Shown here piece after piece: positions 29,706 through 64,000 of a stretch of 64,000 nt of DNA. Under the pieces are notes generated by a model. That model saw nothing but the letters and a program-made list of their open reading frames with translations, ran no database searches and was not told where the DNA came from. Each line of letters begins with the position of its first letter. Positions within the stretch are counted from its first letter, which is position 1. Both the position numbers and the translations under genes were made by a program. Source of the stretch: Actinomycetes bacterium (GTDB lineage Bacteria > Actinomycetota > Acidimicrobiia > Acidimicrobiales > Acidimicrobiaceae); contig JAKCDL010000010.1 in assembly GCA_021841935.1 (NCBI GenBank), forward strand, positions 1-64,000, in the 5' to 3' direction.

Positions 29706-30245
29706 TCAAAGGCCAAATTCCGAAAGGTCGATGCCTTCCAAGGTGTCAAGTGGATCCTTCATTGACTTGTCAGCTACTTCTCGAGCTCGTTCCAAGTCGA
29801 ACCAACTGATCTCTTGACTCTCGCCTTCAGGTGGTGACGGATCTTCCTTTCCACCTAAAACGAGGTATTGAGAGTCCAGATGAAAGTGTTCGCCTGCTGG
29901 ATGGCATGAGATATGAAAAAGTAGGGGAGTGGCGTTCGGATGCACAAGCTGTAATCCCGTCTCCTCCCTTCCTTCCCGGAGGGCAGAATCCCATGGACTT
30001 TCGCCGGGATCAATGTGACCTCCGGGCTGAATCCACGCGTTGAACTTTTTGTGCTTATGAAGAATGATGCCGCGGGGACCAACGACCATAGCGGAAGCTG
30101 TTGCGTGCCTTGGATTTGCGAATCGATCAAAAAAATCCACTCGGCTGGTCGCTTCAGCGATGATCATTGTCTTGTCAGCTTGCTGCTGCTCGTTCCTAGC
30201 ATTGAAGTCTCTTATCGACTGAATCCAATTTTCATACCAATCCAA
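29706..30245 (-). CDS. NUDIX hydrolase
   Basis: About 179 residues from a TTG at 30245 that lies 6 nt after AGGGAG; the frame is open to 30269. The Nudix box G-x5-E-x7-REG-REETGL is complete at about 76-98, within QPGGHIDPGESPWDSALREG. The family hydrolyses nucleoside diphosphates linked to another group, as in housecleaning or nucleotide-sugar turnover; the exact substrate is unknown. A carbonic anhydrase gene lies upstream on the same strand. A decayed second copy of the gene is at 33094-33650. Confidence 0.85.
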   Translation of the reverse strand: MDWYENWIQSIRDFNARNEQQQADKTMIIAEATSRVDFFDRFANPRHATASAMVVGPRGIILHKHKKFNAWIQPGGHIDPGESPWDSALREGREETGLQLVHPNATPLLFHISCHPAGEHFHLDSQYLVLGGKEDPSPPEGESQEISWFDLERAREVADKSMKDPLDTLEGIDLSEFGL

Positions 30246-30439
30246 GACAAGCTCCCTGTGGCAAAACAAACGCGCAAGTTGAAACCGTGACCATACTTTT
30301 GGAACGATACCTATAGGCCAGTTGAAAAAACGTTAGCCCAATATTGCGCAAAAAGGCTCGATTTCATTTTCTTCTTTTGGGGGAATCTTTTGAATTTGGT
30401 CGTCAATACCAGACCTATTAGAAGTCGCAAAACGAATTT

Positions 30440-30481
30440 TGATGGCCGAGATGCGATGATATCAAAGAGTCTCGACCATCA
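30440..30481. terminator. Hairpin downstream of the carbonic anhydrase gene
   Basis: TGATGGCCGAGA / TCTCGACCATCA, a 12-bp stem with one mismatch and an 18-nt loop, 9 nt after the leftward gene's stop. It is repeated at 36940-36981. Confidence 0.6.
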
Positions 30482-30490
30482 GAATTAACG

Positions 30491-31069
30491 CTATTGAGCC
30501 TTACCTATGGTCGTCGCCTCTTCAACCTCAATCAACTTTCCTGAAGCGACGTCAAAGATGTATCCATAGACGGGAATCGATGACGGTATCAATGGGCTGT
30601 TTTTAATTCGAGTAACGTCTTCCTTCACCGAAGTTACTTGGTCAGCGATCGTTAGCCAATTGATGTACTTTCCGTCAGTGGCGCCAGGACCACTTCCAAC
30701 GTCTTTGAAGCCCTCTTCAGTAAGTGCTGCTGTTTCGAGACTCGATTCAAGAAGGTTACCCATCAATTCACTGGTGAAGAACTCCATCCCACAGTTTGTG
30801 TGGTGGATGACAAAGAACTCCTTCGTTCCCAGTAACTTGTATGAAATAACTAGGGAGCGAATGGCGTCGTCGCTTGCACGTCCGCCGGCATTTCGTATTA
30901 CGTGAGCATCACCTTCGCTAAGCCCAGCAAACTTTGCTGGATCGAGACGAGCGTCCATACAGGTTAAGACCGCAAAGCGACGTGATGGTGGCATGGCAAG
31001 ATTTGCCCTATCGCCAAAGCTGGCCGCATATGCGGCATTTGATGTAAGAACCTCATTTAGCACTGACAT
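30491..31069 (-). CDS. Beta-carbonic anhydrase, copy 1
   Basis: 192 residues of the beta class, interconverting CO2 and bicarbonate. The zinc ligands are Cys37 and, after HH, His90-Thr-Asn-Cys93. Asp39-Ala-Arg41 of the CMDAR motif forms the catalytic dyad, and [15 protein letters not shown] follows. The ATG has GGAAG upstream. The protein is identical to that at 36991-37569, and the downstream hairpin is also duplicated. It neighbours a NUDIX gene on the same strand, an arrangement that recurs in decayed form at 33094-34165. Confidence 0.92.
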
Positions 31070-31406
31070 TATCTTCCTTTCGACACACTCGCAACTTTCA
31101 AGTGGAGATACTAATTCAATTTATGACTTAATTGATCGGATTTATCAAATATTCCTAAGTTCGGATCAATGCCTATGAGATGGTTGAAAATTGTTGTCTG
31201 GTAACCCTGCAAACTTCTGAGTTAGATAGCTCAGCTGTTTAGAAGAACATAATTTTTGGGTAGCCATCCCCACGATTACTTTCATTTCTCGATTACATTT
31301 GAGCATTTAAAAGAGCTCTGATCTAAGTAGCGGAACGTTTCGTATTTTCATCCTTAATGCCGTCGAAAGTGAACTTAGGAATACCGAGCGCCAGGCACAC
31401 GTGTAG

Positions 31407-33093: not shown

Positions 33094-33650
33094 CTACTCG
33101 ATTCCAAATACCGACAGATCAGTGAACACCAAATTGTCCAGTACATCCTTCATCGATTCATCGGCGACTACTCGAGCGCTCTCGAGGTCGAACCAACCAA
33201 TCTCTTGACTCTCGCCTTCAGGTGGTGATGGATCTTCGTTTCCACCTAGGAATAGGTATTGAGAGTCCAGATGAAAGTGTTCGCCGGCTTGATGACACGA
33301 TATGTGAAAGAGTAGGGGAGTGTGGTTGGGATGTGCAAGCTGCAATCCTGTCTCTTCAATTCCTTCACGAAGGGCTGAATCCCATGGACTTTCGCCGGGA
33401 TCAATGTGACCTCCGGGTTGAATCCATGCGTTGAACTTTTTGTGCTTATGAAGAATGATGCCACGAGGACCAACGACCATAGCAGAAGCGGTGGCATGCC
33501 TTGGAATTGCAAATCGATCAAAAAATCCGATCTGCTCGTCGCTTCGTCGATGATCATTTTCTTATCAGCTTCCTGTTGATCACTTCTTGGGTTGAATTCT
33601 CGTATCGACTGAATCCAACTTTCAAACTAATCCAAGACAAACTCCCAATC
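33094..33650 (-). pseudogene. NUDIX hydrolase, decayed second copy
   Basis: The C-terminal 128 residues, including an intact Nudix box (REGIEETGL in place of REGREETGL), closely match the gene at 29706-30245. The N-terminal part continues in another frame: the A-run at about 33516-33521 has six A where copy 1 has seven. The codon matching Tyr12 of copy 1 (in LDWYENWIQ) is a stop. The gene is therefore broken, yet the downstream half is well preserved, suggesting fairly recent inactivation or a remaining short product. Confidence 0.8.
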
Positions 33651-33884
33651 ACATATCAAACGCGTAAGTTGAACCTTCGACTTTACATTGAGAATAGTTC
33701 GCATCGCAAAATCGACGCGAACTCAGAGACATCACGAATAAGAGTTCGAAATAGCCCCCGCAGGAGGATCTACTGCATAAGTGCACGACAGCCTTCACGA
33801 CGTGGCTCCATGGTACAAAGTTTGTAAACGAGAGCGAATGGAATCAAAGGCTTTAAGCCGTCAAGCCCGCGATATCGACCTCCG

Positions 33885-34165
33885 CCCATCGATGTTACCT
33901 CTTCGACCTCGATCAGTTTGCTCAACGCAACGTCACAGATATTTAGATTGTCACGAACTGAAGACGGCATAAAGGTCTGTTTTTGATTTGTGAATCATCT
34001 TCACTGACCGAAGTTACTTGTCTAGCGAATGGAAGACAGTTGAGGTACTCACAATCCGATGCTCAGGGTCCACTTCCGACTTCCTTGATGCCCCCTTTGG
34101 CAAGGGCTTGAAGTCTCGGAGACTTGATTTGAGAAGGCGAGCAATCAATTCACCGATGGGGGTCT
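33885..34165 (-). pseudogene. Carbonic anhydrase, decayed copy (C-terminal part)
   Basis: On the minus strand this stretch aligns at DNA level with the 3' half of the carbonic anhydrase genes: the Val/Glu-rich tail region, the GACCGAAGTTACTTG block, and the GACTTGATTTGAGAAGG and ATCAATTCACCGATG blocks. Many substitutions and small indels separate them, and no open frame remains. With the broken NUDIX gene it is an older duplicate of the 29706-31069 module. Confidence 0.75.
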
Positions 34166-34673: not shown

Positions 34674-35960
34674 ATGGGTGAAATTTCTATACCTCCTAGT
34701 CCAGTCCGTCGTGACGTAGTTGCGAATCGCCAAGAGGTTGAAAGTTGGGTAAGACAGCACCTCTCCGGACTGTATCTAGAAGAACCAGAAGAAGCACACG
34801 GTTCGAGCTCATTTTTCGGAGGTCAAGACATTGCTGACAAAGCATTGGAGACTCTAGATATCACGGGTTACGCAAGCAAGCGAAGCAGGGTAGCACCAGA
34901 GGCTCTCAGAGGCGCTACACGGCTATCGCCGTATATTCGCCACGGTCTACTGACTTTGCCTGAAGTCTGGCAGGCGGTGAAAGGCGGGAGTTACGAAGAC
35001 CTTAAAAGTTTCCGAAATGAGCTGTTGTGGCAGGATTACAGTCGTCATCTTTATAACTTTCTCGGACGAAATTCTCAAGAGCCTATTCGATATGAACTCT
35101 CCCAAATTGATACAGCAATGGAGATCGTGGAAGTTCTGGCCTACGACGAAGATATGGAATGCTTACGCCGGTGTAACGAGGAGTTGCGCGAGAGCGGTTG
35201 GCTCGTGAATCAAACCCGAATGTGGATGGCCTCTCACCACTCGATCCGCGAAGGACAACCCTTTGATATAGGAGAGGACGAATTTTTCAGACACCTTCTT
35301 GATGGTTCTCGAGCAGCTAATCGTCTTGGCTGGCAATGGGTGGCGGGAACTCTGACCGGAAGACCATATGGATTTAGCCGAAGTCAAGTCACTAGGCAGG
35401 CGCCGCAGTGGTGTAACGAGTGCGCCCTTCGCAGTCGATGTCCGATCGATACGATGCCCGATTCCCCTGAGTATGTGGTCCGACGAGAGTCGGCTTCACT
35501 TCGGATTCAGGAGGATCTCGGTCCGAAAGCCGAGATAAAAGATGGCCCTGATGCCGATTGCGTGTGGCTCACAGCCGAACTACTTTCACTTCGTCAGTCT
35601 GCCTTAGTTCAAAACCCGAATCTACCCGCGGTATTCGTCTTTGATCGTGCGTTACTTGGGCAATTACGACTGTCCTTCAAGCGATTGGTCTTCCTAGCGG
35701 AAACACTCTTTGCCATTGGTGCCGAGCGTACACTTGAACTTCACGTCGGAGATCCGACTGAAGTGCTTAGCGGTCGTCGAATCGCGGCAACGTGGACACC
35801 AGTACCTGGATGGAAGAAGCGACAAAAGAACCTCAACATCACCGAACTCCACCCTTGGCCGTGGTTATGTGTGAGCAAGGGTGTCATTTCCCTAGGCTCA
35901 TTTAGCGCTTGGAGCAAGGCTGCTGTCTTTGCCGATGGCCGTCGGCACAACTTTCGGTAA
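34674..35960 (+). CDS. Cryptochrome/photolyase-like protein with reversed domain order
   Basis: 428 residues. Residues 55-240 look like the helical FAD domain of photolyases: LSPYIRHG, ELLWQDYSRHLY, GWLVNQTRMWMAS, and HLLDGSRAANRLGWQWVAGT. A Cys cluster C247-x2-C250-x5-C256 follows. Residues 293-365 (VWLTAELLSLRQSALVQ, AVFVFDRALL, LSFKRLVFLAETL, HVGDPTEVL) resemble the alpha/beta antenna domain that normally comes first. The order therefore appears permuted. It probably binds FAD and may repair UV-damaged DNA or sense light; the cysteines could ligate a metal or Fe-S cluster. It stands alone. Confidence 0.75.
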   Translation: MGEISIPPSPVRRDVVANRQEVESWVRQHLSGLYLEEPEEAHGSSSFFGGQDIADKALETLDITGYASKRSRVAPEALRGATRLSPYIRHGLLTLPEVWQAVKGGSYEDLKSFRNELLWQDYSRHLYNFLGRNSQEPIRYELSQIDTAMEIVEVLAYDEDMECLRRCNEELRESGWLVNQTRMWMASHHSIREGQPFDIGEDEFFRHLLDGSRAANRLGWQWVAGTLTGRPYGFSRSQVTRQAPQWCNECALRSRCPIDTMPDSPEYVVRRESASLRIQEDLGPKAEIKDGPDADCVWLTAELLSLRQSALVQNPNLPAVFVFDRALLGQLRLSFKRLVFLAETLFAIGAERTLELHVGDPTEVLSGRRIAATWTPVPGWKKRQKNLNITELHPWPWLCVSKGVISLGSFSAWSKAAVFADGRRHNFR

Positions 35961-36938: not shown

Positions 36939-36939
36939 T

Positions 36940-36981
36940 TGATGGCCGAGATGCGATGATATCAAAGAGTCTCGACCATCA
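36940..36981. terminator. Hairpin downstream of carbonic anhydrase copy 2
   Basis: Same 12-bp stem with one mismatch as at 30440-30481, carried along in the duplicated segment. It begins one base inside the repeat border. Confidence 0.6.
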
Positions 36982-36990
36982 GAATTAACG

Positions 36991-37569
36991 CTATTGAGCC
37001 TTACCTATGGTCGTCGCCTCTTCAACCTCAATCAACTTTCCTGAAGCGACGTCAAAGATGTATCCATAGACGGGAATCGATGACGGTATCAATGGGCTGT
37101 TTTTAATTCGAGTAACGTCTTCCTTCACCGAAGTTACTTGGTCAGCGATCGTTAGCCAATTGATGTACTTTCCGTCAGTGGCGCCAGGACCACTTCCAAC
37201 GTCTTTGAAGCCCTCTTCAGTAAGTGCTGCTGTTTCGAGACTCGATTCAAGAAGGTTACCCATCAATTCACTGGTGAAGAACTCCATCCCACAGTTTGTG
37301 TGGTGGATGACAAAGAACTCCTTCGTTCCCAGTAACTTGTATGAAATAACTAGGGAGCGAATGGCGTCGTCGCTTGCACGTCCGCCGGCATTTCGTATTA
37401 CGTGAGCATCACCTTCGCTAAGCCCAGCAAACTTTGCTGGATCGAGACGAGCGTCCATACAGGTTAAGACCGCAAAGCGACGTGATGGTGGCATGGCAAG
37501 ATTTGCCCTATCGCCAAAGCTGGCCGCATATGCGGCATTTGATGTAAGAACCTCATTTAGCACTGACAT
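36991..37569 (-). CDS. Beta-carbonic anhydrase, copy 2
   Basis: Identical in nucleotide and protein sequence to the gene at 30491-31069, with the same zinc-site residues Cys37, Asp39, His90 and Cys93. The upstream 337 nt and downstream hairpin are duplicated with it, so both copies should have the same promoter and be expressed alike. No NUDIX gene accompanies this copy. Confidence 0.92.
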
Positions 37570-37906
37570 TATCTTCCTTTCGACACACTCGCAACTTTCA
37601 AGTGGAGATACTAATTCAATTTATGACTTAATTGATCGGATTTATCAAATATTCCTAAGTTCGGATCAATGCCTATGAGATGGTTGAAAATTGTTGTCTG
37701 GTAACCCTGCAAACTTCTGAGTTAGATAGCTCAGCTGTTTAGAAGAACATAATTTTTGGGTAGCCATCCCCACGATTACTTTCATTTCTCGATTACATTT
37801 GAGCATTTAAAAGAGCTTTGATCTAAGTAGCGGAACGTTTCGTATTTTCATCCTTAATGCCGTCGAAAGTGAACTCAGGAATACCGAGCGCCAGGCACAC
37901 GTGTAG

Positions 37907-38694: not shown

Positions 38695-40044
38695 TTAGAG
38701 TTGGTGACCTCTGGAGAACTCTAGCCGTGTTGATGTCGCTAATATGGCGTCTGCCGCTGCTGTCCTGAGGTGAGCAAGAGCGGTTATAACGTCAGGATTG
38801 TCAGCCTTAGATAATTGTTGGAATATGATCTCCGACGATTCTAAGTGTGCGCGGGAGATGATTTCGATGGTTCTAATTAAATGGGCCAACTCCATTTCAG
38901 TAGCAAGAGCAGCGATGTGCGCCTCGGCTACCTCTTTGCTCTCTAGTGCCGCTCGCCTGCGTTCCTTCGACACAAGGACATCGACGATCGCTTCTTGTGT
39001 ACTTGCATCAAGTGCGATTTCATAAACTCCAGCAGGAGTCGAAAGTTTCAGGAAGAGTGCCGTCAAATCTATTGAGAAGAAGAATAGAAAGAGAAATATC
39101 TCAAGGATCAAAACTTCGGGATGAACCCTCGCAACCTGTTGCAGGGCTTGCAAGCGAGCAGGGTAGTCACTACTAAATGCAGAGAGATACTGATTTATCT
39201 CAGTAGTCGTCTGATGATCAATGGCGATATATTTATTGCTAACGCTGCTACTAAGGGCATCGACTCTCTGTTGGAGTTGAGGAATTACGACATTATCCAG
39301 ACGTAGCTTTCGTGAAAGATCGCTCCGATATATCGGCCCCTGTGAAATGTTGCCAGAACTACTCCCGCAGGAAAGTTTCGCAGCTACTCCGCTCTGCTCG
39401 TCAGAGAGGAGTGTTCCAAGACACTGTGACCTAACCTGCTCATTCGTGAGTTCCAACTTTGCGGCATCAAGGCCAGATGACCTATTTAGGGCAGCTTTCT
39501 CCCTCTCTGCGTTAGCTAGCATCGTCGAAACAGCCGCAGTCTTATCTGAATTCAATTGCGCTCGAATAGTACCTGAGTTGATCAACAAAACTATTGGATC
39601 AGAGATAACTGCACTTAGGAGAAGGGTAAATACCACGCGGGAAAGAAGCGGAAGTATAGGCATCCCTCGCAGAGCCTTCAATCTGTTGCGACCGTCCTCA
39701 CTGTTACCATAATTTCGAACTATCTTCCCCGCGCTCGTTTGGGACTTGTGGAGCGTTGAAACGATATATCGATCTATCGACAAAACAACTAATCCAAAGA
39801 AAAGGCCGATCAAGATCGACGCCAATATGCTACTTGACACGGTAGAGACCAGATACATCATCGAACCGGTAGCGAGGGTCGCCGGTATAAGGACCAAGGC
39901 ACCTTGGGACGCCAACCTTCGAGTTTCATATTCTCGCATCGAGCCACACCGCTCCAGGATGGCGGGATCTGCTCCCACCATCCATAAGAGCACAGATTGT
40001 AAACTAATTGCGAGCTGCTTGAATTTCGAATTCAAACTCTGCAC
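38695..40044 (-). CDS. DUF4407-like membrane protein
   Basis: About 449 residues from a GTG at 40044 that follows AAGGAG by 5 nt; the frame is open to an ATG at 40059 that lacks a good site. Early LLWMVGADPAILERC and the DRYIV motif after two membrane helices are typical of DUF4407. A third membrane segment, a long extracytoplasmic helical region with three cysteines (about 175-310), a fourth membrane helix (about 325-345) and a cytoplasmic helical tail follow. Function unknown. The gene is cotranscribed with the helical protein at 40080-40655. Confidence 0.7.
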   Translation of the reverse strand: MQSLNSKFKQLAISLQSVLLWMVGADPAILERCGSMREYETRRLASQGALVLIPATLATGSMMYLVSTVSSSILASILIGLFFGLVVLSIDRYIVSTLHKSQTSAGKIVRNYGNSEDGRNRLKALRGMPILPLLSRVVFTLLLSAVISDPIVLLINSGTIRAQLNSDKTAAVSTMLANAEREKAALNRSSGLDAAKLELTNEQVRSQCLGTLLSDEQSGVAAKLSCGSSSGNISQGPIYRSDLSRKLRLDNVVIPQLQQRVDALSSSVSNKYIAIDHQTTTEINQYLSAFSSDYPARLQALQQVARVHPEVLILEIFLFLFFFSIDLTALFLKLSTPAGVYEIALDASTQEAIVDVLVSKERRRAALESKEVAEAHIAALATEMELAHLIRTIEIISRAHLESSEIIFQQLSKADNPDVITALAHLRTAAADAILATSTRLEFSRGHQL

Positions 40045-40079
40045 TTCTTCTCCTTTCATCTCACAACTGATATTGAGAC

Positions 40080-42713: not shown

Positions 42714-43118
42714 TCAAACGCGTGTAGTCCATAACCGACTTACAGAGATGTTGCCGATCTGTAAGTACCGCCGTTTAAGGTTATAAAAGTCCATATCGAC
42801 CCTAATCCAAGCCTTCAATTTCGATATATCTTCAAATACATAGCGGTAGAAGTACTCATGATCAAAGTTGTCGACCAGAACGACTTTGGCGGTTGCGTGA
42901 TCGTAGCAAGATCTGGTTTTACCCATTGATCTTTGTATCCCGTTAGCTTCACACAAGTTCCACGACTCAGACAATCGTTCAATTGGCTTGTACCCTATTA
43001 TATGAAAAATGCACCTTTGCTCGGCTTCAGGGGTGAGCGCAACGGTCGAGAGGAATTCACTGGTGCATAATTCAACCAGAGGAGTATCGTTGACCACACA
43101 TTTGAACATTGAGCTCAA
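42714..43118 (-). pseudogene. IS3-family transposase fragment
   Basis: The frame shows the C-terminal part of an IS3 ORFB integrase core: SESWNLCEANGIQRSMG, the degenerate YDHATAKVVLVDNFDHEY where the catalytic Glu region should be, and FYNLKRRYLQIGNIS. The preceding DRG-containing segment is in another frame, and no N-terminal half is present. A related relic lies at 63542-64000, with matching decay of the same segments, so both derive from one ancestral element. Confidence 0.7.
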
Positions 43119-54982: not shown

Positions 54983-55963
54983 TTGCAGTCGATTTTGGAT
55001 ATTCGGGATATGCCAAACAGAGGTCGAACTGACAGGATCCTAATTGTCGGTGTCGGTCGAACCGGAAGTACATGGCTCACAAAGGCTCTAGGTCAAACGA
55101 CAGGATCAGTGCCATGGTTCGAGCCAGACAGAATCGACGCAGCCCAAATTCCTGGAAAGGACTTTGGAAGATCTGGATTTGGGCCCTACCCCATAATCGA
55201 CCCGGACGATCCGGGAAGTGTCTACCGGCCACTTTGGGACGTGGTTTTCAAAGGCGCGATTACGTCCGACCAACTTCGCCGAATGACTCCTCTCCTGCAA
55301 CCTTTCCTAAAGTTACCAAAGCCAATTTTACATCCTCTGGTAAAAGCGGGAGGTACCGTTCTTTCAGCCTTACCACGCAAGAATGTTCGCAACATTGCAA
55401 AAACAATATTTGCGTGCTTCTCAATCGAGTGGATAGTCAATAACTACGATCCGCAGGTCATCGTGGCGCAGCGTCATCCGTACAGCGTAGTAGCTAGCTG
55501 GAGAGAGTTGGATTTGCCGAAATTCGACATTCTGAATCGTCACGAAATTCTAAAGCGTTATGGCGATCTGTTCGAAGGCAATCCGCCTAGTTCTTCTGAC
55601 TCTGAACTTACGCAGATTGCTTGGATTGTGGGGCTTCAAACCGCTGCCTTGGGTGCCGCGGCGGAACGTCACCCCGAATGGGTCGTGGTAAATCATGAGG
55701 ATATGTGCGTCGATCCAATAGAGAAGTTCAAAGCTCTCTGTAAGATCCTTCAGATTCCGTGGTCAGATAATGTTGCAGAATTCCTCGAATCCTCGAATCG
55801 CCCAGGGCAAGGAAAATTGACCAATCGAGTCGCAAGCGAGCAAGTAAACAAGTGGCGTCGAGTCCTCTCGGACGGTGAGGTAGACGAAATTGCATCGGTG
55901 CTACAGCGCTTTCCCAACTACGGCTGGGTAGTAAAGCCAGATGACTGGGCGGAGCTCATCTAG
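54983..55963 (+). CDS. PAPS-dependent sulfotransferase, copy 1
   Basis: 326 residues from a TTG at 54983 with AAGGTGA upstream. The 5'-phosphosulfate loop is GVGRTGSTWL (about 23-32). The 3'-phosphate motif is QRHPYSVVASW near 164-174, and HEDMCVDP lies further on. The family transfers sulfate from PAPS to hydroxyls of sugars or other acceptors in the cytoplasm. No membrane helix is present. Its gene follows a beta-helix protein gene and lies beside polysaccharide genes, so a surface glycan is the likely acceptor. It is closely similar to the protein at 61657-62643. Confidence 0.85.
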   Translation: MQSILDIRDMPNRGRTDRILIVGVGRTGSTWLTKALGQTTGSVPWFEPDRIDAAQIPGKDFGRSGFGPYPIIDPDDPGSVYRPLWDVVFKGAITSDQLRRMTPLLQPFLKLPKPILHPLVKAGGTVLSALPRKNVRNIAKTIFACFSIEWIVNNYDPQVIVAQRHPYSVVASWRELDLPKFDILNRHEILKRYGDLFEGNPPSSSDSELTQIAWIVGLQTAALGAAAERHPEWVVVNHEDMCVDPIEKFKALCKILQIPWSDNVAEFLESSNRPGQGKLTNRVASEQVNKWRRVLSDGEVDEIASVLQRFPNYGWVVKPDDWAELI

Positions 55964-61656: not shown

Positions 61657-62643
61657 TTGGAATCAATACTTAACGCTAAGCCCAGTCTGCGTAATGGACG
61701 GGATGACAGGATACTTATAGCTTCAATTTCGCGAACAGGAAGTACGTGGCTTGTGAATGCCCTGGCAAATACGCCGGGAACCAGAAGTTGGCCTGAGCCG
61801 GACGGCATTGGCACAAGTCTTGACGCGACAGAAAAGTATGGTTCAACGGGGTTCAGACCATATCCGATATTGAAAGCGGGAGATGACGGAGGCGTGTATC
61901 GTGCGCTCTGGGATATAGTCTTCAAAAGCGCCGTATCTGAAAAAATGGCATCTACCGTGGAACCGATGTTGAAGCCTTTCCTTAAGCTTCCGAAGCCAAT
62001 ACTTGAACCACTTGTGCGCGCTGGTGGCAAGGCCCTAACAATGCTACCCAGCCGCGCTGAACGCAATCTAGTCAAAACTGTATACGGCTGCTTCGCTCTT
62101 GACTGGTTTGTTGACGTATACGACCCTCGGGTTATTGTTACACAACGACATCCATTGAGCGTAATCGCTAGCTGGCGTGATGTGGGGATACCTCAGTACG
62201 ATCTAATTACACGGCCAGAATTTCAAGAGGCTTACTCTGATTGGTACGAGGGTAACCCGCCAAGCGAACGTGACTCTAATATGACTCGAATCGCATGGAT
62301 CGTTGGCTTTTTAACCACTGTTATGAGCGATGCTTATGATCGTCACCCCGAATGGCTATTGGTTAATCACGAAGATATGTGCATCGATCCCGTCAGGAAA
62401 TTCAAAGCACTCTGTAACGTAGTGGGTATACCGTGGTCAGATAAAGTGGCGGACTATCTCACGAAATCGAATCGACCAGGAGAAGGTCTTAAACCCGAGA
62501 GGATCACCTCGGAGCAGGTTGACAAATGGCGCTCGATTCTTACCGAAAATGAAGTACGTGAAGCTGTAGAAGTGCTTATGCGATTTCCAAACAAAGGTTG
62601 GATTCGGCGGCCCGAAGATTGGGAAGAACTGCTTCAACTTTAG
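61657..62643 (+). CDS. PAPS-dependent sulfotransferase, copy 2
   Basis: 328 residues from a TTG at 61657 behind AAGGGTG. The 5'-phosphosulfate loop is SISRTGSTWL (about 23-32). TQRHPLSVIASW is the 3'-phosphate motif, and HEDMCIDPVRKFKALC, ITSEQVDKWR and RFPNKGWI near the end match copy 1 almost residue by residue. It is intact despite the insertion-sequence debris upstream. The acceptor is probably a surface polysaccharide. Two paralogues may sulfate different positions or simply raise dosage. Confidence 0.85.
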   Translation: MESILNAKPSLRNGRDDRILIASISRTGSTWLVNALANTPGTRSWPEPDGIGTSLDATEKYGSTGFRPYPILKAGDDGGVYRALWDIVFKSAVSEKMASTVEPMLKPFLKLPKPILEPLVRAGGKALTMLPSRAERNLVKTVYGCFALDWFVDVYDPRVIVTQRHPLSVIASWRDVGIPQYDLITRPEFQEAYSDWYEGNPPSERDSNMTRIAWIVGFLTTVMSDAYDRHPEWLLVNHEDMCIDPVRKFKALCNVVGIPWSDKVADYLTKSNRPGEGLKPERITSEQVDKWRSILTENEVREAVEVLMRFPNKGWIRRPEDWEELLQL

Positions 62644-63541: not shown

Positions 63542-64000
63542 CTACGCCGCCTTGGCGGACTCCAATGATGTTAGTTCATAACCAATTGGTGAGATGTTGC
63601 CGATCTTCGAGTACCGCCTTTTATGGTTATAAAAATTCATGTAAATCCTAATCCCAGCCCTCAATTCGGACATACCTTCAAATACGTGCCGGTAGAGGTA
63701 CTCACGATCAACGGTATCGACCAGAACGACCTTGGATGTTGCGCGATCGTAGCAAGATCCAGTTTTACCCTTTGAACGGATAATGCCATTCTGTTCACAC
63801 AAGTTCCACGACTCAGACGATCGGTGAATTGGCTCCCGCAGTCTTATGTGAAGAATTACACCTTGTATAACCTTGTCCCTGAGCAATATTGCCCGTTGAA
63901 GTGCCTCTAAAACAAGGCTTGTCCTCATATGACGATCAATTGCATATCCAAGTACTCGTCCCGAATGCTCGTCACGAATGGCCCACAGTATTCGTGAAGA
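63542..64000 (-). pseudogene. IS3-family transposase relic (runs off the right edge)
   Basis: From the window edge leftwards the minus strand reads ILWAIRDEHSGRVLGYAIDRHMRTSLVLEALQRA, interrupted at the expected turns, the middle of an IS3 ORFB core. The DCGSQFT segment (normally DRGSQFT) then falls in a different frame, before ESWNLCEQNGIIRSKGK and FYNHKRRYSKIGNISP. The frameshift makes it inactive. It is a sister of the relic at 42714-43118. The start lies outside the window. Confidence 0.72.

Follow-up and report, generated by a model that had tools for sequence, protein, structure and literature searches.

A photolyase-like protein of Acidimicrobiaceae with its FAD domain first and a putative Fe-S site

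The window presented here, which is the whole stretch of 64,000 nucleotides that was analysed, bears a photolyase gene whose product has its FAD domain first and its alpha/beta domain last. Homology and conserved residues make it probable that the protein is a flavin photolyase of the Fe-S, FAD-first kind with inverted domains, and that it most likely repairs cyclobutane pyrimidine dimers (CPD). Reversed-order photolyases are central to the debate on the first photolyase, namely whether the catalytic domain came first and whether it held an Fe-S cluster or not. The features of the gene are the following (window coordinates):

34674..35960, + strand: gene of the reversed-order photolyase (428 aa; start ATG, stop TAA)
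34854..35378, + strand: FAD/catalytic domain, residues ~61-235 (PF03441, PDB matches, hhalign, residue counts)
35028..35033, + strand: W119-Q120, Q120 replacing a flavin-contact Arg (A. nidulans R287; alignment and residue list of PMC9426592)
35160..35162, + strand: C163, putative Fe-S ligand 1 (invariant, aligned with FeS-BCP Cys1)
35205..35222, + strand: V178-N179-Q180-T181-R182-M183, with a CPD-type Asn at the PhrB His366 column (alignment, H366N literature)
35307..35309, + strand: S212, replacing a flavin-contact Asp (A. nidulans D382; alignment)
35412..35441, + strand: putative Fe-S ligands 2-4, C247-x2-C250-x5-C256, where the FAD domain ends (aligned with FeS-BCP Cys2-4)
35553..35927, + strand: C-terminal alpha/beta (antenna-type) domain, residues ~294-418 (hhalign, swapped-order HMM blocks)

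Domain order of the 428-aa protein

The FAD domain was identified by several searches. PF03441 (FAD_binding_7) matches residues 167-230 with 40.2 bits against a curated cut-off of 27 (E-value = 3e-10), and the best PDB match by phmmer is the Thermus photolyase 1iqr, residues 62-232 of the protein aligning with 193-364 (E-value = 7e-13). Sequence searches of the PDB gave significant E-values for the FAD domain and for no other part of the 428 aa. Comparison of profiles by hhalign showed a 99.7% probability between canonical FAD domains and the FAD domain of the family, and the residues noted within it are E116, W119, N179, R182, M183, D210, N216, W220 and W222.

Searched alone, the C-terminal domain had no Pfam or NCBIfam match. 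A profile of this domain, consisting of the actinobacterial orthologues, was matched to canonical photolyase N-terminal domains by hhalign (Prob 91.9%, E-value = 6.9e-7, 73 columns), and the aligned columns begin at the first strand and reach the 'GDPxxxL' motif. Two control comparisons, one of the C-terminal domain with canonical FAD domains and one of the family's FAD domain with canonical N-terminal domains, gave a Prob of 0.1-0.3%. Additionally, the family HMM falls on many canonical photolyases as two blocks with their order swapped; for example, in L020 HMM positions 276-356 fall onto residues 76-157 and positions 39-218 onto residues 281-465. The C-terminal blocks are weak one by one (i-E-values of at least 0.03, the best being 0.03), yet they are found at the same place every time. 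The same HMM matches P0006, a free-standing alpha/beta protein from Deinococcus, at an E-value of 1e-15, and P0006 itself reaches an E-value of 2e-4 against PF00875, just under the gathering cut-off of that family. The profile comparison, the swapped HMM blocks and the P0006 match together confirm, at the level of sequence profiles, that the domains stand in reversed order, FAD domain first and alpha/beta domain last, opposite to textbook photolyases. The same profiles make the C-terminal domain a homologue of the antenna domain that ordinary photolyases carry, and its fold is predicted from these sequence profiles; its second half, beyond the GDP motif, is shorter than in canonical photolyases. 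An AlphaFold model from a two-row alignment was not usable (pLDDT 33). The sequence-only reading had reported both the ORF and the reversed order of its domains, and on these two points it was right.

The 428-aa protein is matched along its full length by an orthologue with 86% identity (dN 0.079, dS 0.488), giving a dN/dS of ~0.16 overall, ~0.14 for one half of the gene and ~0.21 for the other, which indicates purifying selection in both. This orthologue and the low dN/dS show that the gene is not a product of chance. The reversed layout is unbroken in most of the more than 80 actinobacterial genomes carrying the gene. An artefact, a frameshift or a fusion pseudogene was considered and ruled out, as full length is kept in many genomes under that same dN/dS.

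Putative Fe-S site, lesion site and flavin site

C163, C247, C250 and C256 are invariant in all 52 actinobacterial members aligned and in all three Deinococcus proteins, and all four are absent from the NewPHL-like protein of Ruegeria (P0004). In a joint alignment, which includes the FeS-BCP of the same genome (L104), they share their columns with the four [4Fe-4S] ligands of FeS-BCPs, represented in PhrB by C350, C438, C441 and C454 (PMC3204975). Because the four cysteines are invariant and aligned with the FeS-BCP ligands, it is likely that they hold a putative [4Fe-4S] cluster. A metal or Fe-S site at C247/C250/C256 had already been suggested from the sequence, and it is plausible since all four FeS-BCP cysteines are present, of which C163 had been missed.

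Concerning the lesion site, Asn179 occupies the PhrB His366 column and Glu116 the PhrB Gln306 column in 52/52 members, whereas FeS-BCPs have His and Gln, respectively. The significance of the FeS-BCP Gln/His at the lesion site, as against the CPD-type Glu/Asn, has been described (PMC3204975), and the same His-to-Asn exchange in PhrB (H366N) abolished (6-4) repair (PMC4619345). The lesion-contact residues Trp119 and Trp222 are kept among the 52 members and Met183 is mostly kept. The flavin site has diverged. Q120 (Arg-to-Gln) and S212 (Asp-to-Ser) are fixed in all 52 actinobacterial members, whereas Arg and Asp are retained at those flavin-contact positions in the Deinococcus, NewPHL-like and class I proteins; the corresponding R287 and D382 belong to the flavin-binding residues that PMC9426592 describes as kept in every Phr group. 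Both substitutions being clade-wide, the geometry of the FAD may differ. Furthermore, where class I enzymes have the middle Trp of their electron chain, the protein of the window has Phe197, and this Trp is missing in the window's genus; 49/52 members have it.

In CPD repair as we envisage it for this protein, the N-terminal domain would hold reduced FAD, which on excitation by blue light would donate an electron to a flipped-out CPD gripped by E116, W119, N179, M183 and W222. The Fe-S cluster would be structural or would aid DNA binding, as proposed for FeS-BCPs, and the C-terminal domain would pack on the FAD site, where an antenna may or may not be carried. This role is favoured because Glu116 and Asn179 are CPD-type, because exchange of the PhrB His at the Asn179 column for Asn abolishes (6-4) repair, and because an FeS-BCP already exists in the genome. 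We count against it the Q120/S212 swaps, Phe197, the published (6-4) prediction for related proteins with its UV-C phenotype (see below) and the pLDDT of 33 of the AlphaFold model.

It is unlikely that the protein is a light sensor (bacterial cryptochrome) rather than a repair enzyme. The altered flavin contacts and the missing electron-chain Trp of the window's genus would suit a sensor, and the FeS-BCP CryB has signalling roles (PMC9178010); however, the canonical lesion contacts E116, W119, N179 and W222 are all kept and M183 mostly so, and no conserved signalling neighbour was found in the 14 neighbourhoods compared.

Activity as a (6-4) photolyase is a further reading, following Haney et al. 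(PMC9426592), who predicted (6-4) repair for Phr4/Phr5 and Phr6 from their cysteines and reported Synechococcus phr4 mutants to be sensitive to UV-C rather than UV-B. The Fe-S cysteines are indeed common to the (6-4)-specific FeS-BCPs and the mutant phenotype is biased towards UV-C, but we regard this activity as quite improbable here: the essential His is replaced by Asn179 and the Gln by Glu116 in every one of the 52 members, the H366N mutant of PhrB loses (6-4) repair, the genome already has an FeS-BCP, and Fe-S clusters also occur in the SPL CPD photolyases, as these are described in PMC9649867. The CPD-type active site thus argues against taking Fe-S cysteines alone as a mark of (6-4) repair, which bears on the published function predictions for Synechococcus Phr4/Phr5.

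Distribution, companion photolyases and genomic surroundings

Orthologues with 42-86% identity were found in 9/98 genomes among the relatives, the window's own counted. The gene was present in 62/296 sampled genomes of the class and in 26/396 of the phylum, making the Fe-S, FAD-first form broad in Actinomycetota. Orthologues are mostly full length, a few being broken off at contig ends, and nearly all sampled members of one genus with streamlined genomes of 0.6-1.1 Mb (g102) carry the gene. In the FAD-domain tree the actinobacterial proteins form a clade (100/100) on a long stem with the fused Deinococcus proteins as sister (88/81), and class I photolyases and FeS-BCPs form their own separate clades; in this tree, which includes no cyanobacterial Phr4/Phr6, the NewPHL-like P0004 is a long branch and the deep forks have no firm order. 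Judged by the aligned residues, the actinobacterial branch is distinct by its own flavin-site substitutions, within a kind that has already been published. A viral or phage origin was also considered and rejected: three scans of viral contigs gave no relative, and phage and plasmid matches had at most ~75% query cover and at most ~33% identity.

The same genome encodes a canonical class I photolyase (C24:4215-5561) and an FeS-BCP (C24:48294-48962). PF03441 has two matches only in this genome, the reversed-order gene and the class I photolyase, and PF04244 (DPRP) matches the FeS-BCP only, the reversed-order protein being without an N-terminal DPRP domain. Across the class, an FeS-BCP is present in 55/62 carriers of the reversed-order gene versus 47/234 non-carriers. 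Counted by genus the figures are 18/22 versus 29/126, with a Fisher p of 2e-7; the counts are uncorrected for kinship and shared habitat. Because most carriers also have an FeS-BCP, a redundant (6-4) role is unlikely. Several carriers have no FeS-BCP (e.g., G018, G125 and G133), for which incomplete assemblies are possible. The two genes adjoin in 3/36 neighbourhoods, belonging to three different families; these pairs aside, a comparison of 14 neighbourhoods showed no conserved operon. In G455 (L112:4566-7405) the FeS-BCP gene is followed by the reversed-order gene with a 4-bp GTGA stop/start overlap, which suggests translational coupling of the two; in G344 (L124) the pair is on the same strand, and in G514 (L122) the frames are adjacent or overlapping.

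These data raise two further readings. One starts from the Q120 and S212 substitutions, the reduced C-terminal domain and the gene overlap seen in one genome, and takes the actinobacterial branch as functionally separate, its flavin following another redox or photochemical route and the protein acting as a coupled pair with the FeS-BCP; this is a tentative idea to which we give little weight; if true, the branch and the FeS-BCP would be one light-driven unit against both UV lesions. Very unlikely is an accessory partner of the FeS-BCP, such as a heteromer or a DNA-loading subunit with no independent enzyme activity, as the strong co-occurrence and the adjacent genes of the three families speak for it but linkage is seen in so few neighbourhoods, several carriers have no FeS-BCP at all, and co-occurrence may simply mark sunlit habitats. 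NewPHL photolyases act on single-stranded DNA. For the CPD photolyase that we favour, one may speculate on a niche of CPD repair outside the coverage of class I photolyase and FeS-BCP, perhaps also on single-stranded DNA.

Several repeats were noted in the window. A 968-bp direct repeat at 30439-31406 and 36939-37906 (99.8% identical, 879 bp exact) flanks a 6.5-kb segment containing the reversed-order photolyase gene, and its copies hold two identical 192-aa carbonic-anhydrase-like (Pro_CA) genes; it is possibly a recent duplication or an effect of assembly. A third, degraded copy of the carbonic-anhydrase repeat (71%) is located at 33898-34153. Another repeat with 84% identity, at 29738-30283 and 33129-33673, comprises two NUDIX-domain genes. 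Because these repeat in the same order beside the carbonic-anhydrase copies, an older unit of NUDIX and carbonic anhydrase appears to have been duplicated. A DUF4407 protein is encoded at 38695-40059. Short internal repeats (77-90% identical) are located at 18-406, where they include a tandem repeat of ~126 bp at the left edge of the window, at 42725-42988 and 63572-63834, and at 55664-55806 and 62338-62480.

Comparison with known systems

Class I CPD photolyases (E. coli, A. nidulans and the one of the same genome) share the FAD domain and the lesion-site residues with the protein described here, but they have the opposite domain order, no Fe-S cysteines and ~30% identity in the FAD domain only. 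FeS-BCPs (PhrB, CryB) have homologous cysteines and a related FAD domain (hhalign Prob 96.8%, E-value = 2e-10); they differ in the opposite domain order, the DPRP antenna domain, the His and Gln of the active site and the CX2CX12-15C spacing. SPL (Xu et al. 2021 MBE) are presented in PMC9649867 as short photolyases. By that description, which is the only ground of this comparison, CPD repair and the Fe-S cluster are features of SPL and they have no N-terminal alpha/beta domain; that domain is absent there and C-terminal here.

The sequence-only reading had taken the opposite order to be universal among characterised photolyases and had proposed that the protein may represent a distinct class. 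Neither claim is supported by the literature, as a FAD-first layout has been published for NewPHL in 2020 and for Phr6 and Phr4/Phr5 in 2022, so that the layout is already that of known families, as far as the accounts cited here describe them. NewPHL (Emmerich et al. 2020, NAR 48:12845) is presented in PMC9426592 and PMC13274461 as FAD-first and without the four cysteines. In the terms of these accounts, it has in common with the present protein the inverted topology, the CPD-type lesion residues and an 'RMW' motif, and it differs in the short Z-domain at its end and in the four cysteines, all of which are present here; the NewPHL-like Ruegeria protein is 23% identical.

A close likeness in layout is seen with Phr6 and the split Phr4/Phr5 of marine Synechococcus/Cyanobium, in which the FAD domain is first and the photolyase domain last (PMC9426592). 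Phr4 and Phr6 already combine this order with the same cysteines (C169, C254, C257 and C263 in Phr4; PMC9426592) at nearly identical spacing, C-x~84-C-x2-C-x5-C. That paper gives the flavin-binding residues, R287 and D382 included, as conserved in all its groups, whereas all 52 actinobacterial members have Gln and Ser at these positions, a difference drawn from the published description only. Split and fused forms likewise occur together in Deinococcus (P0005 and P0006 split; P0002 and P0003 fused). On a plasmid of Deinococcus sp. QL22 (L034:3896-5187), a reversed-order photolyase is divided into two overlapping ORFs, FAD and then alpha/beta, a layout that resembles Synechococcus phr4/phr5, though in another phylum.
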